From Desulfobacula toluolica Tol2 (lineage in GTDB: Bacteria > Desulfobacterota > Desulfobacteria > Desulfobacterales > Desulfobacteraceae), in the NCBI RefSeq assembly GCF_000307105.1, contig NC_018645.1, forward strand, positions 1,376,578-1,440,577: a stretch of 64,000 nucleotides of DNA, in the 5' to 3' direction. This document shows positions 1 through 9,297 of the stretch, piece after piece (the first letter of the stretch is position 1; each line of letters begins with the position of its first letter). Below the pieces are notes generated by a model that did no database searches, was not told the origin of the DNA, and saw nothing but the letters and a program-made list of their open reading frames with translations. A program made the translations under genes and the position numbers.

Positions 1-144
1 ACCAGGACAAAAAGAAGAAAAATCTTTGTAATATTTTTTATATCCTTCCCTTGGACGGATGACGCCGGTGGTAATGATGCTTTTTAAATTTTCCGTGTTC
101 GTGGCCATTAAAAATAGTTTTGAATCAAGTTTTGGTTTTGCCAT
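1..144 (-). CDS. Partial CDS of unknown function at left edge
   Basis: An open frame reads leftward from an ATG at 144-142 and is still open at base 1, giving 48 visible residues beginning MAKPKLDSKLFLMATN. A strong Shine-Dalgarno (AAAGGAG, complement of 154-160) lies 9 nt before the ATG. The start is only 3 nt past the stop of the SF1 helicase, so it is probably the next gene of the same operon. The visible part has no signal peptide or membrane segment and I do not recognise the family. By context it could be an accessory component of the DISARM-like locus. No function is claimed. Confidence 0.6.
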   Translation of the reverse strand, partial: MAKPKLDSKLFLMATNTENLKSIITTGVIRPREGYKKYYKDFSSFCPG

Positions 145-147
145 AAA

Positions 148-1287
148 TTAACACTCCTTTTGCTGCCATGTCTTTAAAACTTTTTTGTCATCCGGGAATT
201 CATTCATGATTTTTTTTCTTTTATAGTCATTTGTATTGGCATCCATCAGAAAAAAAAGTCCTTTTCTCGCCCTTGAAATCAAAACATACATCTCTTTTCT
301 AAATCGTTCATCTCCTGGAGCTGCAAGGGGAAAATTATGTAAATCAACGATAAAGACATCATCAAACTCCAGGCCTTTGGCACTTTTTGAATTGATAACA
401 ACAATACCTCCATGGTCAAATTCAATGGGCTTGTTTTTACTCCCCAGATGGTTTGCATATGTGTACAGACAATGGATGCCCAGTATTTCCAGTTGCCTGA
501 AATAATACTGCCTGACCTTGTTGTTCGGCGTTATAATTCCGATCAAATGACCGGGATAGGTTTTGTGCCGACGGGCGATATGGCTGATCATGGCATTTAA
601 GTTATTATATTCAAGCAATAATGGGATCTCGCCATTTTTCTCCGGCAACTTCGGTGGATCGGCTGTTGTAGCGCAATAAAAGTGTTCTGCCAACTCAGCT
701 ATTTGACGGGTGTTTCGATAATTTTTAGTCAGTAAAAAACATTGATCTTTCTCAACATCAAGCCGTTCTCTGATTTGTTTGATGGATGAATTCATCTCAA
801 CAATCTGCTGGTTTTCATCTGCCGATACAATTACTTTTTGAAAGGTTTCATCCATGAATTCATAAAAGCCGGGAGGCATATCCTGTCCCTCGTCAATTAA
901 AATAAAGGTATTATGATCGGTTTTAAGGTCTATTCGATCCAAGATTTCCATGATCATATCCCAGTCATATTCAAAGCTTTTAATCTCAGGCGGCAGCATT
1001 TTAAACTGAAGTTTGAAAAAATGCCAGAACCAGCTGTGCCAGGTTTTTATGGAAATATCATTGGCCAGGCTCAAAGACATTTTTTCCAGAATTTTATTGT
1101 ACAAAAGACATAAACACTCTTTTTTGTTTCGTTTTAATTTGTCCGCCAGAATAAGAAATATGACGGTTTTACCCGTTCCGGGTGCCCCATAGACAAGGGA
1201 TCTGTCTTTTAATTGAGTTTTTCTCAACACCCGGTCCTGCTCTTTGCTCAATTCTTCGTATGTGGGAAGCCTGAAGTTGTTTTTCAT
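148..1287 (-). CDS. Compact superfamily 1 (UvrD/Rep-like) helicase
   Basis: This is a 379-residue SF1 ATPase. Visible motifs, in order: Walker A GAPGTGKT (34-41), Walker B LIDEGQD (130-136), motif III around VSADENQQ (154-161), motif IV-like KNYRNTRQ (188-195), motif V SAKGLEFDD (302-310) and motif VI YVLISRARKG (334-343). All catalytic motifs are present, but the protein is about half the length of UvrD/Rep, so the large 1B/2B insertions are absent. It starts 25 nt after the drmB-like stop and is followed after 3 nt by another ORF, so it is probably the third gene of an operon with drmB. Standard DISARM operons are not described with a small SF1 helicase in this place, so an accessory role in nucleic-acid processing during defence is inference. 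Confidence 0.85.
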   Translation of the reverse strand: MKNNFRLPTYEELSKEQDRVLRKTQLKDRSLVYGAPGTGKTVIFLILADKLKRNKKECLCLLYNKILEKMSLSLANDISIKTWHSWFWHFFKLQFKMLPPEIKSFEYDWDMIMEILDRIDLKTDHNTFILIDEGQDMPPGFYEFMDETFQKVIVSADENQQIVEMNSSIKQIRERLDVEKDQCFLLTKNYRNTRQIAELAEHFYCATTADPPKLPEKNGEIPLLLEYNNLNAMISHIARRHKTYPGHLIGIITPNNKVRQYYFRQLEILGIHCLYTYANHLGSKNKPIEFDHGGIVVINSKSAKGLEFDDVFIVDLHNFPLAAPGDERFRKEMYVLISRARKGLFFLMDANTNDYKRKKIMNEFPDDKKVLKTWQQKEC

Positions 1288-1312
1288 TGAATCAATTTTT
1301 TTATATGATTGC

Positions 1313-3175
1313 TTATGGTTGATTTTGTATGAAACTGATAAATCCTTTCATGTGATTGACACCATTGCCAATAATAAATTGCCGGTCTAAAAGACAGTTG
1401 TTGTAAATACAGCTGACTTCCGGCAACAAAGAGCAACCGTGGCAGGCGGCCCTGTTTAACTGGTCGGGACCCTGTCCCTCATGTTCGGCACATATGGGGT
1501 CATAGGTGCAGTGGTCTGCTTTTGCCATGGCCTTGATCCAGAGTTTAAAAAAGCTGTCGGGTTTTCCATGTTCGGACAATCCCCCTAATGAACCCATTTT
1601 ATTGGGAACGGCAACATAGATTAAAATACCATTGATGGTTTCACTGCAAAAGATTTTTTCTTTTATGGATGATACTGGATAACCTGATGTAAATTCCAGT
1701 TCTCTTATGATTTGATGAGCAATGGTATGCAAAAGAATAAACCTGGGAGTGGCTTTAACCTGATTTTTAACAAAGGCGGAGGTTTTCAGTCTTTTTTGTA
1801 TTGTTTTTGCACGGTCGCGGCACAATGGATCTGATTCCCACTGGCTCACTTTTTTTTCATCCAAAGAAAAGAAAATGCCTTCTCCGTAAAGTTCACATGC
1901 TGGAAGCCAGTCTGTCTTTTTTCCCAGGGCAGGGCCGATCAGATTCCCTCTTGTGCCCACCTGCCGGGTAAATCCGCAAAACACCTGGATTTCCCTTAAC
2001 CGGTTGATAATGATTAATTTTTCTATGGCTTTGCCGGTTTTAATGGTTTTTTCGGGGATATCCTCAGACTCCAGGTAATCTTTCCATTGAGCTGTCTGAT
2101 GTTCGGTGATAAACCGCTCGTGTTGTTGAATATCTTTGTATTCAGTGCAGATGGCCTTATATTCCGCTTCAAGCATCTCATTTTCACTTTTAACTGTATC
2201 TGCCTGGATTCCATAGTTTGGCCATCCTTCATTGAGATCAGTCAGGGCTTTTTTTACTTCATCTTTGCTGGTTTGAAAATGCCTGGCAATTTTTTTGAGT
2301 GTGCGTTTAACGGTCCTTGAGTTATTGTTTTTCAGATCTTTGATAATCTGATAATCATCATGCTGTCTGATTTTTGCCCGGATATCGTGTTCATTGATTC
2401 GGGATTCCGGCGGAATATCCAATGCCGAAGCAATATCTGCAAAATGGATACGGGCATCTGTTAAGGGCATGGCAACGGGCGGGTCGTTTTCCAGATTTTT
2501 TCTTTCCAGCAGCCATGGCTGGCTGCGCATGGTCTGAACACGGTTGGTAAAAAAGTCTTTGTTTCTCAGGCCGCTTAAATTAAGGGGTTGCGACTGGCAG
2601 GCATCACATTTGAGGGTAAGGCGGCCATGGGGATCTCTTTTTAATGTCAGTTGATCCTTTGACCTGCAATTTTTATTTGCAGCTTCGTCATAATGGGCCA
2701 TGTTCGCCCATGGCAGATCATCAAGCCAGCCGTTACCCGATACTAAAACCCAGGTTACAAATTCAAGTTTTCCGTTACAGATTTTTTTTGCACGGCTTGT
2801 ATCACACTTGAGCTCTTCCACAGAGTTGCTTTTTTTTCCCATCCAGGGCAGGTAATGAAGACGGCCGCATTTCTGGCACACCATCCATGACGGAAACCGC
2901 ACTACAGGAATTTTGTTTCCCAGCAGTTTGTTTTTAACATGGGTCAGTGTAGGGGGTTTTAACAGCTCAACATCTTGAAAGCCTTTGTGTTTGAGCCATA
3001 TTTTTAAATGTTCCCGCACAATGGCGATGGGCTTTCCCAGAGGTTTTCCAGCCTTGTCTTTCCAAAAGCTTATGTCGCAAGGCACAAAGCATTCGCTGCC
3101 GGCCCTGCAAATAGCCCCCACCGAACACATCCCTATGGTTTTGGTCTGTCCCACTGTGATGGTGTTCTTATCCAT
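1313..3175 (-). CDS. drmB: DrmB-like DISARM protein (DUF1998 family)
   Basis: This is a 620-residue protein. The N-terminal half has zinc-ribbon-like cysteines (CQKC at 100-103, then C124 and C133, and a later CDAC). The C-terminal half carries the DUF1998 hallmark, a histidine-rich helix ILLHTIAHQIIREL (about 478-491) followed by GYPVSSIKEKIFC and a terminal cysteine cluster (CHGCSLLPEVSC). In DISARM anti-phage systems DrmB (DUF1998) works with the DrmA helicase to recognise and block incoming DNA, and that is the likely role here. The partner drmA-like gene lies about 1.4 kb upstream on the same strand. Other DUF1998 proteins exist (for example fused to SF2 helicases), but the pairing with DrmA favours DrmB. 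No strong Shine-Dalgarno is seen at the ATG. Confidence 0.8.
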   Translation of the reverse strand: MDKNTITVGQTKTIGMCSVGAICRAGSECFVPCDISFWKDKAGKPLGKPIAIVREHLKIWLKHKGFQDVELLKPPTLTHVKNKLLGNKIPVVRFPSWMVCQKCGRLHYLPWMGKKSNSVEELKCDTSRAKKICNGKLEFVTWVLVSGNGWLDDLPWANMAHYDEAANKNCRSKDQLTLKRDPHGRLTLKCDACQSQPLNLSGLRNKDFFTNRVQTMRSQPWLLERKNLENDPPVAMPLTDARIHFADIASALDIPPESRINEHDIRAKIRQHDDYQIIKDLKNNNSRTVKRTLKKIARHFQTSKDEVKKALTDLNEGWPNYGIQADTVKSENEMLEAEYKAICTEYKDIQQHERFITEHQTAQWKDYLESEDIPEKTIKTGKAIEKLIIINRLREIQVFCGFTRQVGTRGNLIGPALGKKTDWLPACELYGEGIFFSLDEKKVSQWESDPLCRDRAKTIQKRLKTSAFVKNQVKATPRFILLHTIAHQIIRELEFTSGYPVSSIKEKIFCSETINGILIYVAVPNKMGSLGGLSEHGKPDSFFKLWIKAMAKADHCTYDPICAEHEGQGPDQLNRAACHGCSLLPEVSCIYNNCLLDRQFIIGNGVNHMKGFISFIQNQP

Positions 3176-3252
3176 TTTATTGCCTGCTTGTTTAAAAAGA
3201 ACAGGATTTCTTGTTTAAGGTCGGTTAATTTGAGAAATAAAATGTTTATTTT

Positions 3253-3297
3253 AATCACACAAATCCATACAGTATCATATTATAATCCGTCAAGGAA
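3253..3297 (-). promoter_or_regulatory. 45-bp repeat upstream of drmB (copy 1), putative promoter/operator
   Basis: The 45-bp segment matches 8007-8051 at 43 of 45 positions and lies 78 bp upstream of the drmB start. Similarity continues more weakly on both sides. Read on the minus strand it contains TTGACG and GATTATAAT, plus the small dyad ATAC-A-GTAT, so it could hold promoter elements and a repressor half-site. The only other copy precedes drmA in the same orientation, so a shared cis-regulatory element is the simplest reading. The rest of the 3176-3520 gap shows no gene. Confidence 0.6.
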
Positions 3298-3487
3298 CTT
3301 TCAAAAATCAACAGCATAAAGGTTTGATTCTCATGTGTTTGGGTCAATCATCCTTTAAAATTGATTAAGGTGCTGTTTGAGGTCTTAAATAGTTGTAATA
3401 AATTTTAAAACTAGGGGTTTTTACCTATATACAAAGCTGATTTTGGATGGTAAAAATTTTTTATGGACTTTTTGAGTTGCATCTTAC

Positions 3488-3502
3488 ATGAATAATATTC
3501 AT
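3488..3502. promoter_or_regulatory. Small palindrome before the DUF4405 gene
   Basis: ATGAAT-AAT-ATTCAT is a perfect 6+6 dyad lying 19-33 nt upstream of the ATG at 3521. Its position would suit an operator overlapping the transcript start. In AT-rich DNA such dyads also arise by chance. Confidence 0.25.
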
Positions 3503-3520
3503 AGAATGAGGTAATTTTTA

Positions 3521-4375
3521 ATGAGTATGAGAAGAATTATATCACTTACAGCTTTTTTATCATTTTTTGTTATGCTTCTGACAAGCGTTATTTTGTATAT
3601 CGTTCCTCAAGGCCGTGTTGCCTATTGGGCTGACTGGAGACTTTGGACTCTCTCAAAAGATCAATGGGGAGCAATTCATATAAATGCTGGTTTTCTTTTG
3701 CTTTTGTCAATTATATTGCATATTTATTATAACTGGAAACCAATTGTTCTATATCTTAAAAATCAAGCTAAACAGATAACAATTTTTACAAAAGAATTCA
3801 ATGCAGCTTTGATTTTAACTATAATATTGGTAGTTGGAACATATGTTGAAATCCCTCCTTTTTCAACAATCATAAATATAAGTGATGGTTTTAAAGAATC
3901 AGCGGCAAAGGAATATGGAGAACCTCCATATGGACATGCAGAACTGTCATCAATTAAAACTTTTTCAAAAAAAATGAATATTGATTTGAAAGCCGGAATC
4001 AAATTTTTGGAAGAAGCAGGTTATAAAATCAGTCAAGATACCCAAACCCTGAAAGAAATTGCCAAAGAAAATAACATTTCACCACAACAAATCTATTTGA
4101 TTATCTCCCGAGAATCAAACAAAGAGTCATTATTTTCAGGAAAAACTACTACTCTGCCTGAAAACCCACCTCCAGGAACCGGAAATTTGACTTTAGCGGA
4201 CTTTTGCAGTCAATACAATCTTAATATCAAAATTGTAACAAGGTCATTGAAAGAATCAAATATAGTATCAAAAGCTGATATGACCATCAAAAAAATTGGT
4301 GAAACAAACAAGATAAGTCCAACTGATATCTACGAACAGATAAAATTAATCACAAGCAAGAATCTTGAAAATTAA
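3521..4375 (+). CDS. Membrane protein with DUF4405-like N-terminus and duplicated C-terminal module
   Basis: This is a 284-residue protein. Three hydrophobic segments (about 5-27, 53-70 and 95-112) and conserved histidines in GAIHINAG and LHIYYNW resemble DUF4405 or cytochrome b-like four-helix domains; haem binding is possible but unproven. The soluble C-terminal part holds two related modules of about 58 residues. Each ends in a pattern like T-hydrophobic-K-I-x-x-x-N-x-I-S-P-x-x-I-Y, once near 180-200 and again near 255-275. Start: a GAGG Shine-Dalgarno lies 9 nt before the ATG. It runs opposite to the flanking drmA and drmB genes, so it interrupts what would otherwise be a drmA-drmB operon. 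A redox or membrane-sensing role is speculative. Confidence 0.75.
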   Translation: MSMRRIISLTAFLSFFVMLLTSVILYIVPQGRVAYWADWRLWTLSKDQWGAIHINAGFLLLLSIILHIYYNWKPIVLYLKNQAKQITIFTKEFNAALILTIILVVGTYVEIPPFSTIINISDGFKESAAKEYGEPPYGHAELSSIKTFSKKMNIDLKAGIKFLEEAGYKISQDTQTLKEIAKENNISPQQIYLIISRESNKESLFSGKTTTLPENPPPGTGNLTLADFCSQYNLNIKIVTRSLKESNIVSKADMTIKKIGETNKISPTDIYEQIKLITSKNLEN

Positions 4376-4535
4376 TTTATAAAATTATTTGCAAAAATGT
4401 AATGATGAAAATTTGCAGAAAATGGTTGTTTTTCCTTGGTAAGGCAATAAAGCAAAGCCATATCAAGTCAAACAATTGGGAAACTAAAGTGGACACGGTA
4501 AGGTGCAGAACCGTCAGAATCTGCTGAAAAAAATA

Positions 4536-7500
4536 TCAGCGAGGCACCATAAAATAAATCCCGCATTCATCATCCACCTGCCGCATGGATTGCAGTGTCA
4601 CCCAGCTGTCATCATCTGTTTGCCCCATTTTTTTCTCATTGTGCCGTTTTAATAACGGTTTTTTATCTTTTGAATGGCTTTGATACTGGAGCGGTGCCTT
4701 AAAAAGGCCGTCTCCACCGCTCATGTCATTCCACTCATACAATAAATTTTCAATATGCTCTTTTGTTGTTTTACCCTTTTGAGGTGATGCCATGCTGCAG
4801 CGCCGTGTAAGGCAAAAAGCTGCATGCCTGATCTTGTCATCTTTAAGATTGATTTGATTCGCCATATTGTTGCCCATAAGACCTGCTCCATGGCGCATCA
4901 CAATAACCAAGGCTGCATGCAAAGCTCTTTTCCGGGCAGGTGATGAAAACGGGGTTAAACTGGTCGGTTCAACAAATCTGTAAAAAGATTGATGATAGGC
5001 TTTGAAATTTTCAAAATGGGACATGTCCCGTGCATGATTGCGAAAATAGTGGGTCACCACGATCCCGGGGACATTGTTTCGTCCAACCCGGCTGCCGGCC
5101 TGTATATACTCGCCTGTTGTAAAAGGCTGGCCATTGATGACCATCAACCCCAGCCGGGAGATATCCAGGCCCACAGACACCATATTGGTGCATAACAGAA
5201 CGCAAATAGCCTGGTTGTTTTCTTCTGAATAAGGAATCTCCAGATCATCCAGATATTTTCTGATTTCATTGGCATTTCTATTGCTGGTCAATTCGGCAAT
5301 GCCGCTTTCCGTATATAGCCTTCTTGTGTTTAAAAATGCATTAATGATTTTTCTTTCCCGGTCGTCATCATTTTTGGATACTTTAAATTTTCTGCAAAAC
5401 TCATGAAATCCTCTGGATAAGGGATCTGTTTGACCCTGTTCGTCATCCAATAACCTTCGGATATACAATTCCAGGTATTTTCTGACATCATCCCCGATTA
5501 AATTATGGGTGATTCCAAGTCCCCTTAAACTGCCGTGATAGGCTACCAGGGTCCACCATGCATCCTGAATGCTTTCATCCGAGTAGTTCCAAAGGGAAGG
5601 CGACAGCAAAAGAGCAGCACCCAATGGCGCAAAAGATTCGGTTCGTTTGAGTCCCGGAGAATAATAGCCCAGGTATAAGCGTCCTGGTTTTTCTTTGTCT
5701 ACCCTGGCAAAAAAAGAATCTTTCCAATTGAGTCCAGGAGACGGAAAAATGTTCACATCACGGGCATAAAGCTTTTTAACCTGTTCTTTTGCATTGCGAA
5801 TGGTTGCCGTGGATGCAATATATTTGGGACAGTGGTCTTTGAGTTTTAAAACCGTATCAAATCCGGCTTCGTACACACCTGCAATGGTTCCAATCTCTCC
5901 TGCGATCAGGTGCAGTTCATCTTGAATGATTAAATCCGGTGGCCGAAATGGACCGGTTCCCCGGGACGCATTACCCAGAAAGATGGTGGTATCCTTATTC
6001 CATGCAAACATGGCAAATTTGTCAATTGTGGCAAGCAAAAGCGTGGGCGGATGCTGATACAGGTGTTCATCCACCACATTGATCGGAAGAACCGGGTTGG
6101 TGCTGCCGCCAAAATCACAGCCGCTGTTGGTGCAGCAAAAGTAAAATTGTCCTTTATTTGCACAGAAACCCGATTTTGATATATCCGGGTTTAAGGAGAG
6201 TTTTTTTCCGCACCAGGGACATTGTGTGACGACAAATTTTTCAAGGCCTGTGCCATTGCCCTGTAATGCATCATCCAGTATTTTTTCGGCATCTTTAAAG
6301 TTGTTGGGTGAACTTGCTCCACCCACCCATAATCCGGCTGTTATGGGTTCTGACCCCAGCAGTTGAGGGTTTTTCCTGCGCAAGAGTTCAAGTGCGCACA
6401 TGAGTATGGATGCCCGCTGGAATTGCTGTATGGTAAGAAGCCTTAATGTATATCTCATGATCACAGTGGTTCCTGCCCCGGCTTGGGGAAAGCGCATGCG
6501 CCGGTAGGTGACAAGAAATGCGATGATGGCAAGGTAGGCTTCTGTCTTGCCGCCTCCGGTCTGGAACCATAACAGATCAACCAGATCCCGGTCCGGATTG
6601 TTTTCGTCAATTAACGAGGGAAGGGTTAGCAACAGAAAACCAAGCTGAAAAGGGCGCCACAATGGTTTTTTTACCTTGCGCGTCTGCATATACGAAAGCA
6701 TGGCTTCATGGGCAAAAGAAAACGCTTTTGCCACCATGGGATCATTAAGGCAGTTTATTCCTTGGTTCATTCTCTGTGCTGTTTTTTCAAGCCGCTTTAA
6801 CATTGTGAAGGCTGTATTTTGCTGTCCTAAAGGCAGGGCCTTGGACTCTTTGTATAGCCCTGCTATCCAGGTTTCATAAGCTTTTGTAAACCCGGTCAAG
6901 TTTTTTTGAATTGTTTTTGGCTGGTGTTCGGTTTTGGCAAGGCAGGACAATTGAAGCACTGTATTGTCAATTACACCCACATCCGTTTTCATCAACGGGA
7001 CTTCATAAGAAGGAATAAAACAGGCTTTGATTGAGGTTATGCAGCCATTGTTTTCGGACCAGTCCGGAGAAACGCCATGCCCGATGGCATAAACGGTTTT
7101 GTCTGCGTAAAGCAATTCAAATTCTTTGTCTTCTTGAGCCATTGTATCAATTTCATTGCCGGGATAGGGAAGAACCGTTCCTGCCTGAATATGGCAGTCA
7201 AAAGACAATTGGAACAGATGGGTTTTTTCCCAGGCTTCAGGATTGATTTTTTTTGCAACAGCACAGTTTACAATGGAAACCGTTAAAATATACCCATCCT
7301 GATGATTATTGTCGGGATAAGGCCGCCATTTCACATGAAGTTGAGCAGATGCTTGATTGTCCTGTTCAAGTTCTTGATGGTGCAGTATGGGGATGGGGGT
7401 TTCATCATTCAACTGCTGATCGTTTTCAGGCACTTTGAGTATGATGCAATCTTCGTGATTTGGGTTGTCGTCCGGCAAGGCACACCGTTCCCAGGTTTGC

Positions 7501-7913
7501 CCGGGTTCTTTTGTGTATCTGGCAGCCTTGAGAAGCACTTCTATGACAATGTTTTTGTTTACAAAAAAGCTGAGTCCTACGGCTGAGGGCGGTCGATAAC
7601 GACAAACAGAGGAAGCCTTTTTGGCTTTGTTTTGTTCGATAGGGCTTTCTTCCACGCCAAACACCGGCTTTTCATCTGCCTGGTCATTTAAATCATCAAC
7701 TGAACTACCAACTGAACTACCAACTGAATCACCAGGTGAGAACCATTCATTGGACGGGTCTTCCATGTGCCCGTACAATATACCGCAGGAATACAGGGAG
7801 GAAGGGCGTATCTGGTTTAATTGTTCGTTTGATTCATAAAAAGGGCCTACAAGGCATCGTTTAAGCCAATCTTTTATCTCTTTTCTTGCTTTTGTGAATG
7901 TGTTGTCAGGCAT
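4536..7913 (-). CDS. drmA: DrmA-like DISARM helicase
   Basis: This is an SF2-type helicase of about 1125 residues. Numbering from the upstream ATG at 7964, Walker A is in WFQTGGGKTEAYL (near 465), the DEAH-like box is DELHLIAGEIGT (near 678), motif III is STAT, and the C-terminal RecA lobe has GLDISRLG with the arginine finger QAGSRVGRN (about 930-960). The DELHLI box, the four-Cys zinc-finger insert between the motifs and an N-terminus of the type WLKRCLVGP are typical of DrmA. DISARM DrmA binds DNA and acts with DrmB against phage. Two ATGs (7964 and 7913) are possible and neither has a clear Shine-Dalgarno; 7913 is chosen because the family-like sequence begins just after it. A 12-nt repeat encodes GSSV-GSSV in a variable stretch. 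No DISARM methyltransferase or DrmC is visible in the window. Confidence 0.85.
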   Translation of the reverse strand: MPDNTFTKARKEIKDWLKRCLVGPFYESNEQLNQIRPSSLYSCGILYGHMEDPSNEWFSPGDSVGSSVGSSVDDLNDQADEKPVFGVEESPIEQNKAKKASSVCRYRPPSAVGLSFFVNKNIVIEVLLKAARYTKEPGQTWERCALPDDNPNHEDCIILKVPENDQQLNDETPIPILHHQELEQDNQASAQLHVKWRPYPDNNHQDGYILTVSIVNCAVAKKINPEAWEKTHLFQLSFDCHIQAGTVLPYPGNEIDTMAQEDKEFELLYADKTVYAIGHGVSPDWSENNGCITSIKACFIPSYEVPLMKTDVGVIDNTVLQLSCLAKTEHQPKTIQKNLTGFTKAYETWIAGLYKESKALPLGQQNTAFTMLKRLEKTAQRMNQGINCLNDPMVAKAFSFAHEAMLSYMQTRKVKKPLWRPFQLGFLLLTLPSLIDENNPDRDLVDLLWFQTGGGKTEAYLAIIAFLVTYRRMRFPQAGAGTTVIMRYTLRLLTIQQFQRASILMCALELLRRKNPQLLGSEPITAGLWVGGASSPNNFKDAEKILDDALQGNGTGLEKFVVTQCPWCGKKLSLNPDISKSGFCANKGQFYFCCTNSGCDFGGSTNPVLPINVVDEHLYQHPPTLLLATIDKFAMFAWNKDTTIFLGNASRGTGPFRPPDLIIQDELHLIAGEIGTIAGVYEAGFDTVLKLKDHCPKYIASTATIRNAKEQVKKLYARDVNIFPSPGLNWKDSFFARVDKEKPGRLYLGYYSPGLKRTESFAPLGAALLLSPSLWNYSDESIQDAWWTLVAYHGSLRGLGITHNLIGDDVRKYLELYIRRLLDDEQGQTDPLSRGFHEFCRKFKVSKNDDDRERKIINAFLNTRRLYTESGIAELTSNRNANEIRKYLDDLEIPYSEENNQAICVLLCTNMVSVGLDISRLGLMVINGQPFTTGEYIQAGSRVGRNNVPGIVVTHYFRNHARDMSHFENFKAYHQSFYRFVEPTSLTPFSSPARKRALHAALVIVMRHGAGLMGNNMANQINLKDDKIRHAAFCLTRRCSMASPQKGKTTKEHIENLLYEWNDMSGGDGLFKAPLQYQSHSKDKKPLLKRHNEKKMGQTDDDSWVTLQSMRQVDDECGIYFMVPR

Positions 7914-8006
7914 AAGAATAATAAAATTCTTTATTATTGATTTAAAAAGAACGCAATCCCTCATTGGACGGGGTTAAACTTAAAAAAAATAAAATCTTTG
8001 ATTTTC

Positions 8007-8051
8007 AATCACACAAATCCATACAGTATCGTATTGTAATCCGTCAAGGAA
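8007..8051 (-). promoter_or_regulatory. 45-bp repeat upstream of drmA (copy 2), putative promoter/operator
   Basis: This is the second copy of the element at 3253-3297, in the same orientation. It lies 94 bp before the ATG at 7913 and 43 bp before the alternative ATG at 7964. The two differences from copy 1 are A-to-G changes within the central AT-rich part, which alter TATAAT to TACAAT on the minus strand. The stretch between drmA and the methyltransferase (7914-8352) otherwise shows only a candidate promoter for the rightward gene. Confidence 0.6.
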
Positions 8052-8134
8052 ATTGCAAGATTAACAGGTTTAATCGAAAAAATGAGAAAAAATCGCTAAA
8101 TTAAAAAAGATGAGATGTTTTGATTCCTTCCGGG

Positions 8135-8163: not shown

Positions 8164-8352
8164 AAGGGTTTGATATCGGTCAAACAAAAGCAGAATTTTA
8201 GCCCTGGTTACTGGCTTGAGGTGCTGATGGAAAAGGTGAAAAGAATATGAAAAAGAAAAAATAATACACTGATGAACCAAAATTCAGAGCTGTTTGGCTC
8301 AATTTATTTCATTGGCGATTTTAACATTTTAAATATAAACAAAGGTATATGC

Positions 8353-9297
8353 ATGAAAAAATGGTTGCAGGAACATTTGATATGTCCTGAATGTCTTGAC
8401 TCACAAACAGCATTGACGCTTGAGATACAAGAAGAACACAATGATGATATACTTGAAGGAACATTAAATTGTCCGGGCTGTGGAAGCAGATATTTGATTC
8501 AGGAGGGCGTTGCCGTTATTGTTCCCCAAAAGACACTGCCTCATACCAAGGGGCATACAACATACAATTCCCAAAGCATGATGTCAGCCTATCTGTGGAG
8601 TCATTATTCTGAGTTTTTTAACGGTCCTGATGCCACGGATGCCTACCGAAAATGGGCGTCTTATTTCAAGCAAACAGATGGCTGGGCATTGGATATTGGA
8701 TGTTCTGTGGGGCGCTTGTCCTTTGAGTTGAGCAAAACACACACCTATGTGATTGGAGTGGATACTTCGTTATCTTTTATCAAAAAAGCCCGTCAGCTTT
8801 TATCTGATAAAAAGCTTGAGTTTGATCTCATTGTGGAAGGGCATATCACAGAAGAGCGTGAATGTGAACTGGACCCGGAATACGATTATAACGCCACAGA
8901 ATTTATTGTGGCCGATGCTCTGGCTCTTCCCTTTCGTTCCGATCTTTTTGCCACAGCTGCCTCTGTCAATATTTTGGAAAAGCTGCCTGATCCGATTCAG
9001 CATTTAAAAGAGGTAAACAGAATTTTACAAAAAGAGCAGGCAAACTTTTTATTCTCCGATCCTTTTTCGTGGGATGAAAGTGTTTCAAGTCCGGATCTTT
9101 GGATAAGCGGCCGCAACAAAGGCCCTGGCAAAGGCCGTGGCATGGATAATATTTGCCAATTGATAAAAGGAGAAAACAATGTGTTTGATCCTGGTTTTAT
9201 CATTCAGGAAAAAGGGGATGTGCTTTGGAAAATCAGGAAAACTCAAAATTTATGGGAACATATCACATCCCAGTTTGTCATTGGTAAAAGAGATTAA
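8353..9297 (+). CDS. SAM-dependent methyltransferase with N-terminal Trm112-like zinc ribbon
   Basis: This is a 314-residue protein. Residues 1-60 hold two CxxC knuckles (ICPECL and NCPGCGS) in a Trm112-like arrangement. The class I methyltransferase core begins at LDIGCSVGRLS (glycine-rich SAM loop), followed by the acidic residue in VIGVDTS and a later ADALALPFRSD segment. The start at 8353 is preferred over an in-frame upstream codon at 8272 because AAAGG lies just upstream and the zinc ribbon begins immediately. The substrate is unknown. Nothing resembles the NPPY/DPPY motif of DNA adenine methylases or the PC motif of C5 methylases, so it is probably not the missing DISARM methylase. The molybdopterin enzyme gene follows. 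Confidence 0.8.
   Translation: MKKWLQEHLICPECLDSQTALTLEIQEEHNDDILEGTLNCPGCGSRYLIQEGVAVIVPQKTLPHTKGHTTYNSQSMMSAYLWSHYSEFFNGPDATDAYRKWASYFKQTDGWALDIGCSVGRLSFELSKTHTYVIGVDTSLSFIKKARQLLSDKKLEFDLIVEGHITEERECELDPEYDYNATEFIVADALALPFRSDLFATAASVNILEKLPDPIQHLKEVNRILQKEQANFLFSDPFSWDESVSSPDLWISGRNKGPGKGRGMDNICQLIKGENNVFDPGFIIQEKGDVLWKIRKTQNLWEHITSQFVIGKRD

Follow-up and report, generated by a model that had tools for sequence, protein, structure and literature searches.

DISARM (defence island system associated with restriction-modification) is commonly seen as restriction-modification with the DrmAB pair as its engine, and the locus described here raises the question of what such a pair does where no methylase gene of its own accompanies it. 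The locus opens a 64,000-nucleotide stretch of the Desulfobacula toluolica Tol2 genome (the window; G000:C1:1376578-1440577 in a single-contig genome of 5,197,905 bases), in which an earlier note, made from the letters of the window, had recognised a DISARM-like locus of non-standard composition; the right limit given there, 7913, stops before position 7964, where drmA is listed to begin. It was found that drmA and drmB are the first two members of a five-gene set, in the order drmA, drmB, a small superfamily 1 (SF1) helicase, a protein of the 531-residue type and a NERD-nuclease/SF1-helicase (hereafter NERD-helicase), all on one strand. This set looks like a DISARM relative in which the nuclease is another one and a DNA-methylating gene is usually missing from the vicinity. 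We predict, with a probability of about 0.7, that it is an immune system of the DrmAB type, directed at phages or other DNA invaders, and that it has neither its own methylase nor its own DrmC.

The five genes and their motifs

The drmA gene (window 4536-7964, minus strand) encodes a YprA-family superfamily 2 (SF2) helicase of 1142 residues, matched by the PADLOC DrmA model (E 5.5e-198), by the solved DrmA structure 7s9v_A (E 3.5e-136) and by the NCBIfam model DrmAS at 832.9 bits, below the equivalog cut-off of 950; its GGGKT, DELH and motif VI are all present. Its DUF1998-type partner drmB (1313-3175, minus strand; 620 residues) scores 305.3 bits with NCBIfam DrmB_fam, above the cut-off of 240, and matches the solved DrmB 7s9v_B (E 4.4e-42), while giving no Pfam match at E 0.001. 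These matches bear out the earlier identification of both core proteins. The third gene (148-1287, minus strand) encodes a UvrD-like SF1 helicase of 379 residues, recognised by Pfam UvrD_C (5.1e-8) and others. The fourth has only its beginning in the window (1-144, minus strand): it starts at position 144 and runs about 1.45 kilobases (kb) past base 1, the whole gene occupying G000:C1:1375126-1376721 and its 531-residue product opening MAKPKLDSK and finding no family match in Pfam, PADLOC or NCBIfam scans. The fifth gene (G000:C1:1373384-1374976, minus strand; 530 residues) lies wholly to the left of the window, outside what the earlier note could see; its product carries a NERD domain (2.5e-10) and matches the PADLOC model RTasNERD-Hel over almost its whole length (7.8e-57), although that model takes its name from reverse-transcriptase systems and no reverse transcriptase family was found in at least two of the 103 nearest neighbours of the five-gene loci.

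The suggestion that missing parts might lie to the left of base 1 was thus right for the remainder of gene four and for the NERD-helicase gene; drmC and drmM, whose presence there the earlier note had named as a refuting outcome, are absent from the left flank. An ordinary DISARM system with its remainder at the left was rejected on the same ground, as the NERD-helicase gene and then, on the opposite strand, a molybdopterin oxidoreductase gene were found in that place instead.

Motif conservation was followed in rows from the nine loci first collected, together with rows from the 80 loci described below that passed filters on length and score, six records being counted twice. In DrmA the lysine of GGGKT is kept in 67/68 rows, and the DELH residues D, E and H, like the three of motif VI, in 68/68; the small SF1 helicase retains its Walker A lysine, the two DEGQD acids and the arginine of motif VI throughout (65/65). 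Likewise, residues E51, D53, E66, K68 and Q99 of the NERD-helicase are found in all 80 rows and its Walker lysine in 79, while each of the seven DrmB cysteines checked is present in 68/68. At the level of sequence, therefore, all three helicases retain intact ATPase motifs, and the catalytic residues of the NERD domain are preserved as well.

Conservation and distribution of the operon

The 531-residue protein is present in 10 of 389 genomes of the class, the Tol2 genome included. Surroundings were examined for eight of the nine others, the ninth match (G132) being a fragment at a contig end, and all eight loci hold the five genes in the same order on one strand; in one of them (L019) a frame of 179 residues stands ahead of a shortened drmA frame. 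A scan of genome contigs with the single 531-residue protein as query confirmed none of 26 stretches. A wide search seeded with the NERD-helicase alignment confirmed 93 of 266 candidate stretches, of which the best 80 were kept, six of them records already seen (L025, L044, L047, L065, L089 and L096), and genes were called in these by profile searches in six frames. The complete set, in the same order and on one strand, was recovered in 63 of the best 80 loci, six of these with a split gene. In another 12 the first gene lies within 300 nucleotides of the contig start, so that completeness cannot be judged; among them is L102, with the order NERD-helicase, drmA, drmB. The remaining five comprise a locus starting near a contig end (L042), one with a diverged fourth protein (L092; 24 bits, 7.5e-7), one with the NERD-helicase first and no fourth protein detected (L100), a broken locus (L104) and a natural DrmA-DrmB fusion in Psychrobacter sp. 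I-STPA10 (L095:2088-7241), where a single frame of 1717 residues holds a DrmA part (2-1090) and a DrmB part (1105-1709).

By record label the 63 complete loci belong to Pseudomonadota (43), Thermodesulfobacteriota (8), Myxococcota (3) and, with one locus each, Verrucomicrobiota, Acidobacteriota, Campylobacterota, Armatimonadota, Bacteroidota and Lentisphaerota, with three unassigned; the operon thus occurs in at least nine phyla by label, although single records may be misbinned since many are metagenome bins. Its cultured carriers include Desulfobacter latus and Rhodanobacter thiooxydans. Where no gene is split (57 loci), the median intergenic gaps are -4, -4, -4 and +2 nucleotides, extreme values being attributable to start codons taken too far upstream. 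As the same order recurs in 63 of 80 loci, the five genes are not a chance grouping; they are one conserved, tightly packed and widely distributed operon. The compact SF1 helicase and the MAKPKLDSK gene at the window's edge, both singled out by the earlier note, accordingly prove to be constant partners of drmAB in other genomes, the helicase being the third gene of the 63 complete loci.

Related arrangements were also found on plasmids, where 21 of 85 matched records were examined. Operons from Deinococcus gobiensis, Rhodococcus, Rhizobium, Azospirillum, Photobacterium and Streptomyces likewise place one or both types of helicase beside drmAB, but they differ in order or subset, and all five members are detectable only in Deinococcus gobiensis, where the NERD-helicase, drmA, drmB and the SF1 helicase are joined by a protein related to the fourth one (45 bits, 3.3e-13). 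Two Photobacterium plasmids carry drmA, drmB, an SF1 helicase and an unknown protein that has no convincing match to the fourth protein (7.7 bits in L105), a Streptomyces plasmid carries drmA, drmB and an SF1 helicase, and those of Rhizobium and Azospirillum show a UvrD helicase, drmA, drmB and a NERD-helicase. On the Azospirillum ramasamyi plasmid a DarT-family gene (L111:13804-14406; PF14487, 3e-11) stands directly behind the NERD-helicase gene. A separate observation concerns a Sphingomonas parapaucimobilis plasmid (L121:6731-16961), on which a type I-E CRISPR cas operon begins immediately after drmA and drmB.

Relation to DISARM and the place of methylation

The five-gene operon shares with DISARM the DrmA helicase and a DrmB encoded as a separate gene. 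As in DISARM class 1, these are neighbouring genes, whereas the remaining members are instead two SF1 helicases, a NERD nuclease and a protein of DarT-like fold, and the DrmA is shorter (median 1078 versus 1274 residues in the rows used). DrmD and DrmE are the class genes of DISARM; neither is among the PADLOC families with at least two matches in the 103 nearest neighbours, and the fourth protein has no PADLOC match. DrmC, a PLD-type nuclease, was found neither in nor beside the window operon, nor was any PLD family found in at least two of the 103 neighbours. No DNA methylase (DrmMI or DrmMII) occurs in the operon or adjoining it in the Tol2 genome. The earlier description of a DrmAB core without adjoining DrmC, DrmD or DNA methylase therefore holds, the left flank included.

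Phylogeny was followed in a DrmA tree of 44 rows, read without a root and including 21 of the 54 five-gene rows that were usable. All 21 fall on one side of a branch supported at 100/100 and nine class 1 rows on one side of a branch at 100/99, while L100, L102, L105, L106, L109 and L114 share the side of the five-gene rows at 100/99 and L110-L113 and L115 stand on the class 1 side. The labels in this tree are to be read with some care: 'noMT' means no methylase directly within the drmAB run, L113 having same-strand methylase genes nearby and L109, L112 and L115 cytosine methylase genes in the examined stretch; 'dcmE' stands for L116 together with L117 and L125, no methylase having been noticed in L117 or L125; and 'class1' includes L123 and L124, where drmD is not in view. 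A tree of the NERD-helicases agrees with that of DrmA, recovering the five-gene group at 95/97 (20 of 27 rows), with long branches outside the group.

The strongest alternative holds that the operon is DISARM in its logic, with DrmAB sensing methylation written by methylases encoded elsewhere and the NERD-helicase merely replacing DrmC. In this regard, PMC9142583 reports that DISARM is activated by unmethylated DNA, that DrmAB loads on DNA with a 5' overhang and that DrmC is dispensable. N6_Mtase and N6_N4_Mtase matches are present in five of five genomes with the system and DNA_methylase in two of the five, and in G226 the operon is followed, some 6 kb downstream, by one N6_Mtase match. However, methylase genes are common anyway (PF02384 matches in 13 of 14 control genomes), and among the 103 nearest neighbours no DNA methylase family in Pfam reaches two matches, a count that mostly does not cover families matched once; no methylase is thus kept with the operon. 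In the same set no Pfam family occurs in more than four neighbours, and PADLOC gives no Drm model among families with at least two matches, mad2 being matched twice. We regard this alternative as rather unlikely. Two individual neighbours may be mentioned here: one (L044:1088-2062) reads like a methylase, and a class I methyltransferase gene adjoins the operon in the window itself (8272-9297), which does not look like a DNA methylase since its best NCBIfam match, below cut-off, is of the OvoA C-terminal type.

According to PMC12458937, the DISARM-like clade holds many uncharacterised classes, and ARMADA type II, which acts in direct defence, likewise pairs a YprA-family with a UvrD-family helicase. 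No description of the five-gene composition was found in the open-licence literature, although the supplementary tables of PMC12458937, which lay outside the search, may contain it.

The fourth protein

The Pfam ADP-ribosyltransferase domain 2CompART was detected in 13 of 53 relatives of the fourth protein (best E 1.8e-5), and the proteins of the window and of L089 have no Pfam match, 2CompART included. An AlphaFold2 model of the L089 protein (predicted local distance difference test score, pLDDT, 77.4; predicted template modelling score, pTM, 0.75) was compared with the PDB by Foldseek, and DarT made up seven of the first eight matches, the other being a tRNA 2'-phosphotransferase; human ARH3, at rank 12 (probability 0.63, E 0.71), was too weak to use as a relative. 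The model of the L046 protein is better (pLDDT 88.1, pTM 0.90). By the L089 model, the fourth protein has a DarT-like N-terminal fold, a likeness that rests on structure; PF14487 has no match in the Tol2 genome, and PF22546 none over 291 class genomes, where the controls were silent too.

In DarT, of the DarTG system, a His and a Glu serve catalysis. In a weak alignment, His occurs in 0/71 rows at the position corresponding to the H-x-T-H histidine of DarT, and Glu in 0/71 at the four strand columns where the catalytic Glu is expected. The modelled likeness to DarT covers the N-terminal part of the fourth protein; unlike DarT, this protein has a long extra helical part. As the expected His and Glu are missing from the alignment, the protein is read as a non-catalytic DNA reader. 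It might, on the other hand, be an active NAD-dependent ADP-ribosyltransferase whose active site has changed and which marks DNA that DrmAB has exposed, a proposal for which the 2CompART matches, the DarT structures heading the Foldseek list and the DarT-family gene behind the Azospirillum operon all speak, together with the conservation of N16, N19 and D41 (71/71, as is F53) and of E68 (66/71). Columns nearby give a less clear picture, with His in 15/71 rows (column 12) and with Glu in 26/71 and Asp in 14/71 (column 99), so that a shift in the alignment could conceal catalytic residues. With neither residue in its expected place, an active enzyme nevertheless seems improbable, and the non-catalytic reader is favoured.

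Proposed mode of action

If the five genes are an immune system, DrmA and DrmB would assemble into a helicase complex of the DISARM type and load on DNA bearing single-stranded overhangs. The DarT-fold protein would bind single-stranded DNA as a reader or adaptor and leave it unmodified. Translocation on the captured DNA, or its unwinding, may then fall to the small SF1 helicase together with the NERD-helicase, and the NERD domain would cut this DNA. The NERD-helicase would thereby occupy the place of DrmC in ordinary DISARM. The host's own DNA might be spared by the need for an unusual DNA structure, such as ends or forks, or by the marks of other host methylases.

The occurrence of related operons on plasmids, one of them with a DarT-family gene behind it, favours an immune role, as do the fixed gene order, the reordered set of Deinococcus gobiensis, the DrmA-DrmB fusion, the conserved motifs, the DrmA tree, the DarT-like fold and the published overhang loading of DrmAB and dispensability of DrmC. 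Several observations weigh against the picture drawn here. In one class locus (L023, from genome G110) gene five is separated from gene four by a stretch of about 6.8 kb that holds other genes (L023:1929-8365); the wide search, being seeded on the NERD-helicase, cannot count drmAB operons that lack it; and no NERD-helicase was found in the stretch examined of the two Photobacterium plasmids and the Streptomyces plasmid, which share the side of the five-gene rows in the DrmA tree. As regards the DarT likeness, the Foldseek probability was 1.00 for the first seven matches, with a best E of 3.0e-3 and none below 1e-3, the family profile retrieved no DarT among PDB sequences, and hhalign of the family against nine DarT rows returned a probability of 3% (E 0.015).

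A DNA-repair or housekeeping helicase-nuclease set, comparable to MrfAB of the same family, is very improbable: although one main YprA-family branch serves repair according to PMC12458937, the DrmA/DrmB split, best matches to DISARM models, a patchy distribution (10/389 class genomes) and the plasmid-borne relatives all argue against it. That this system constitutes a separate, methylation-free DrmAB class, in which invader DNA would be recognised by its structure, with a chemistry-less DarT-fold reader and a NERD nuclease-helicase that destroys it, is put forward more tentatively.

The membrane gene and the upstream element

In the window, a gene for a DUF4405 membrane protein (3521-4375, plus strand; E 4.4e-20) lies between drmA and drmB. 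The earlier note had counted it among the accompanying genes, and in this point it did not hold, while its core composition and two partner genes did: as a component of the system the gene was rejected, since no gene stands between drmA and drmB in the eight class loci, and the largest drmA-drmB gap in the 57 loci is 370 nucleotides. The opposite-strand gene is a local insertion. Relatives occur on another contig of G090, a genome of the same genus (45%), and in the Tol2 genome at G000:C1:3873177-3873788 (31%, with one internal stop).

An element of 56 nucleotides stands before drmA (8003-8058, minus strand) and again before drmB (3249-3304, minus strand), the copies being 91% identical (88% over 82 nucleotides). 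In L089 (Desulfobacula sp. LigF6_bin14, the nearest relative) the region before drmA is about 81% identical over 125 nucleotides, drmB follows 24 nucleotides after drmA, and the second copy was not found between the two. The DUF4405 gene between drmA and drmB, together with the single copy in L089, suggests that the element was duplicated when the operon was split here, the rear half being given its own copy. The element may hold the promoter of the operon.

Implications

A widespread relative of DISARM with another nuclease and no methylase of its own would make it possible to ask directly what DrmAB recognises once methylation is removed, and the DarT-fold protein would join the parts list of helicase-based immunity. 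The five-gene signature would also serve detection tools, as the PADLOC and NCBIfam models find drmA and drmB and nothing for the fourth protein. If the operon does represent a class of its own, its last three genes would form an effector module open to exchange, alongside the DISARM line that relies on methylases.

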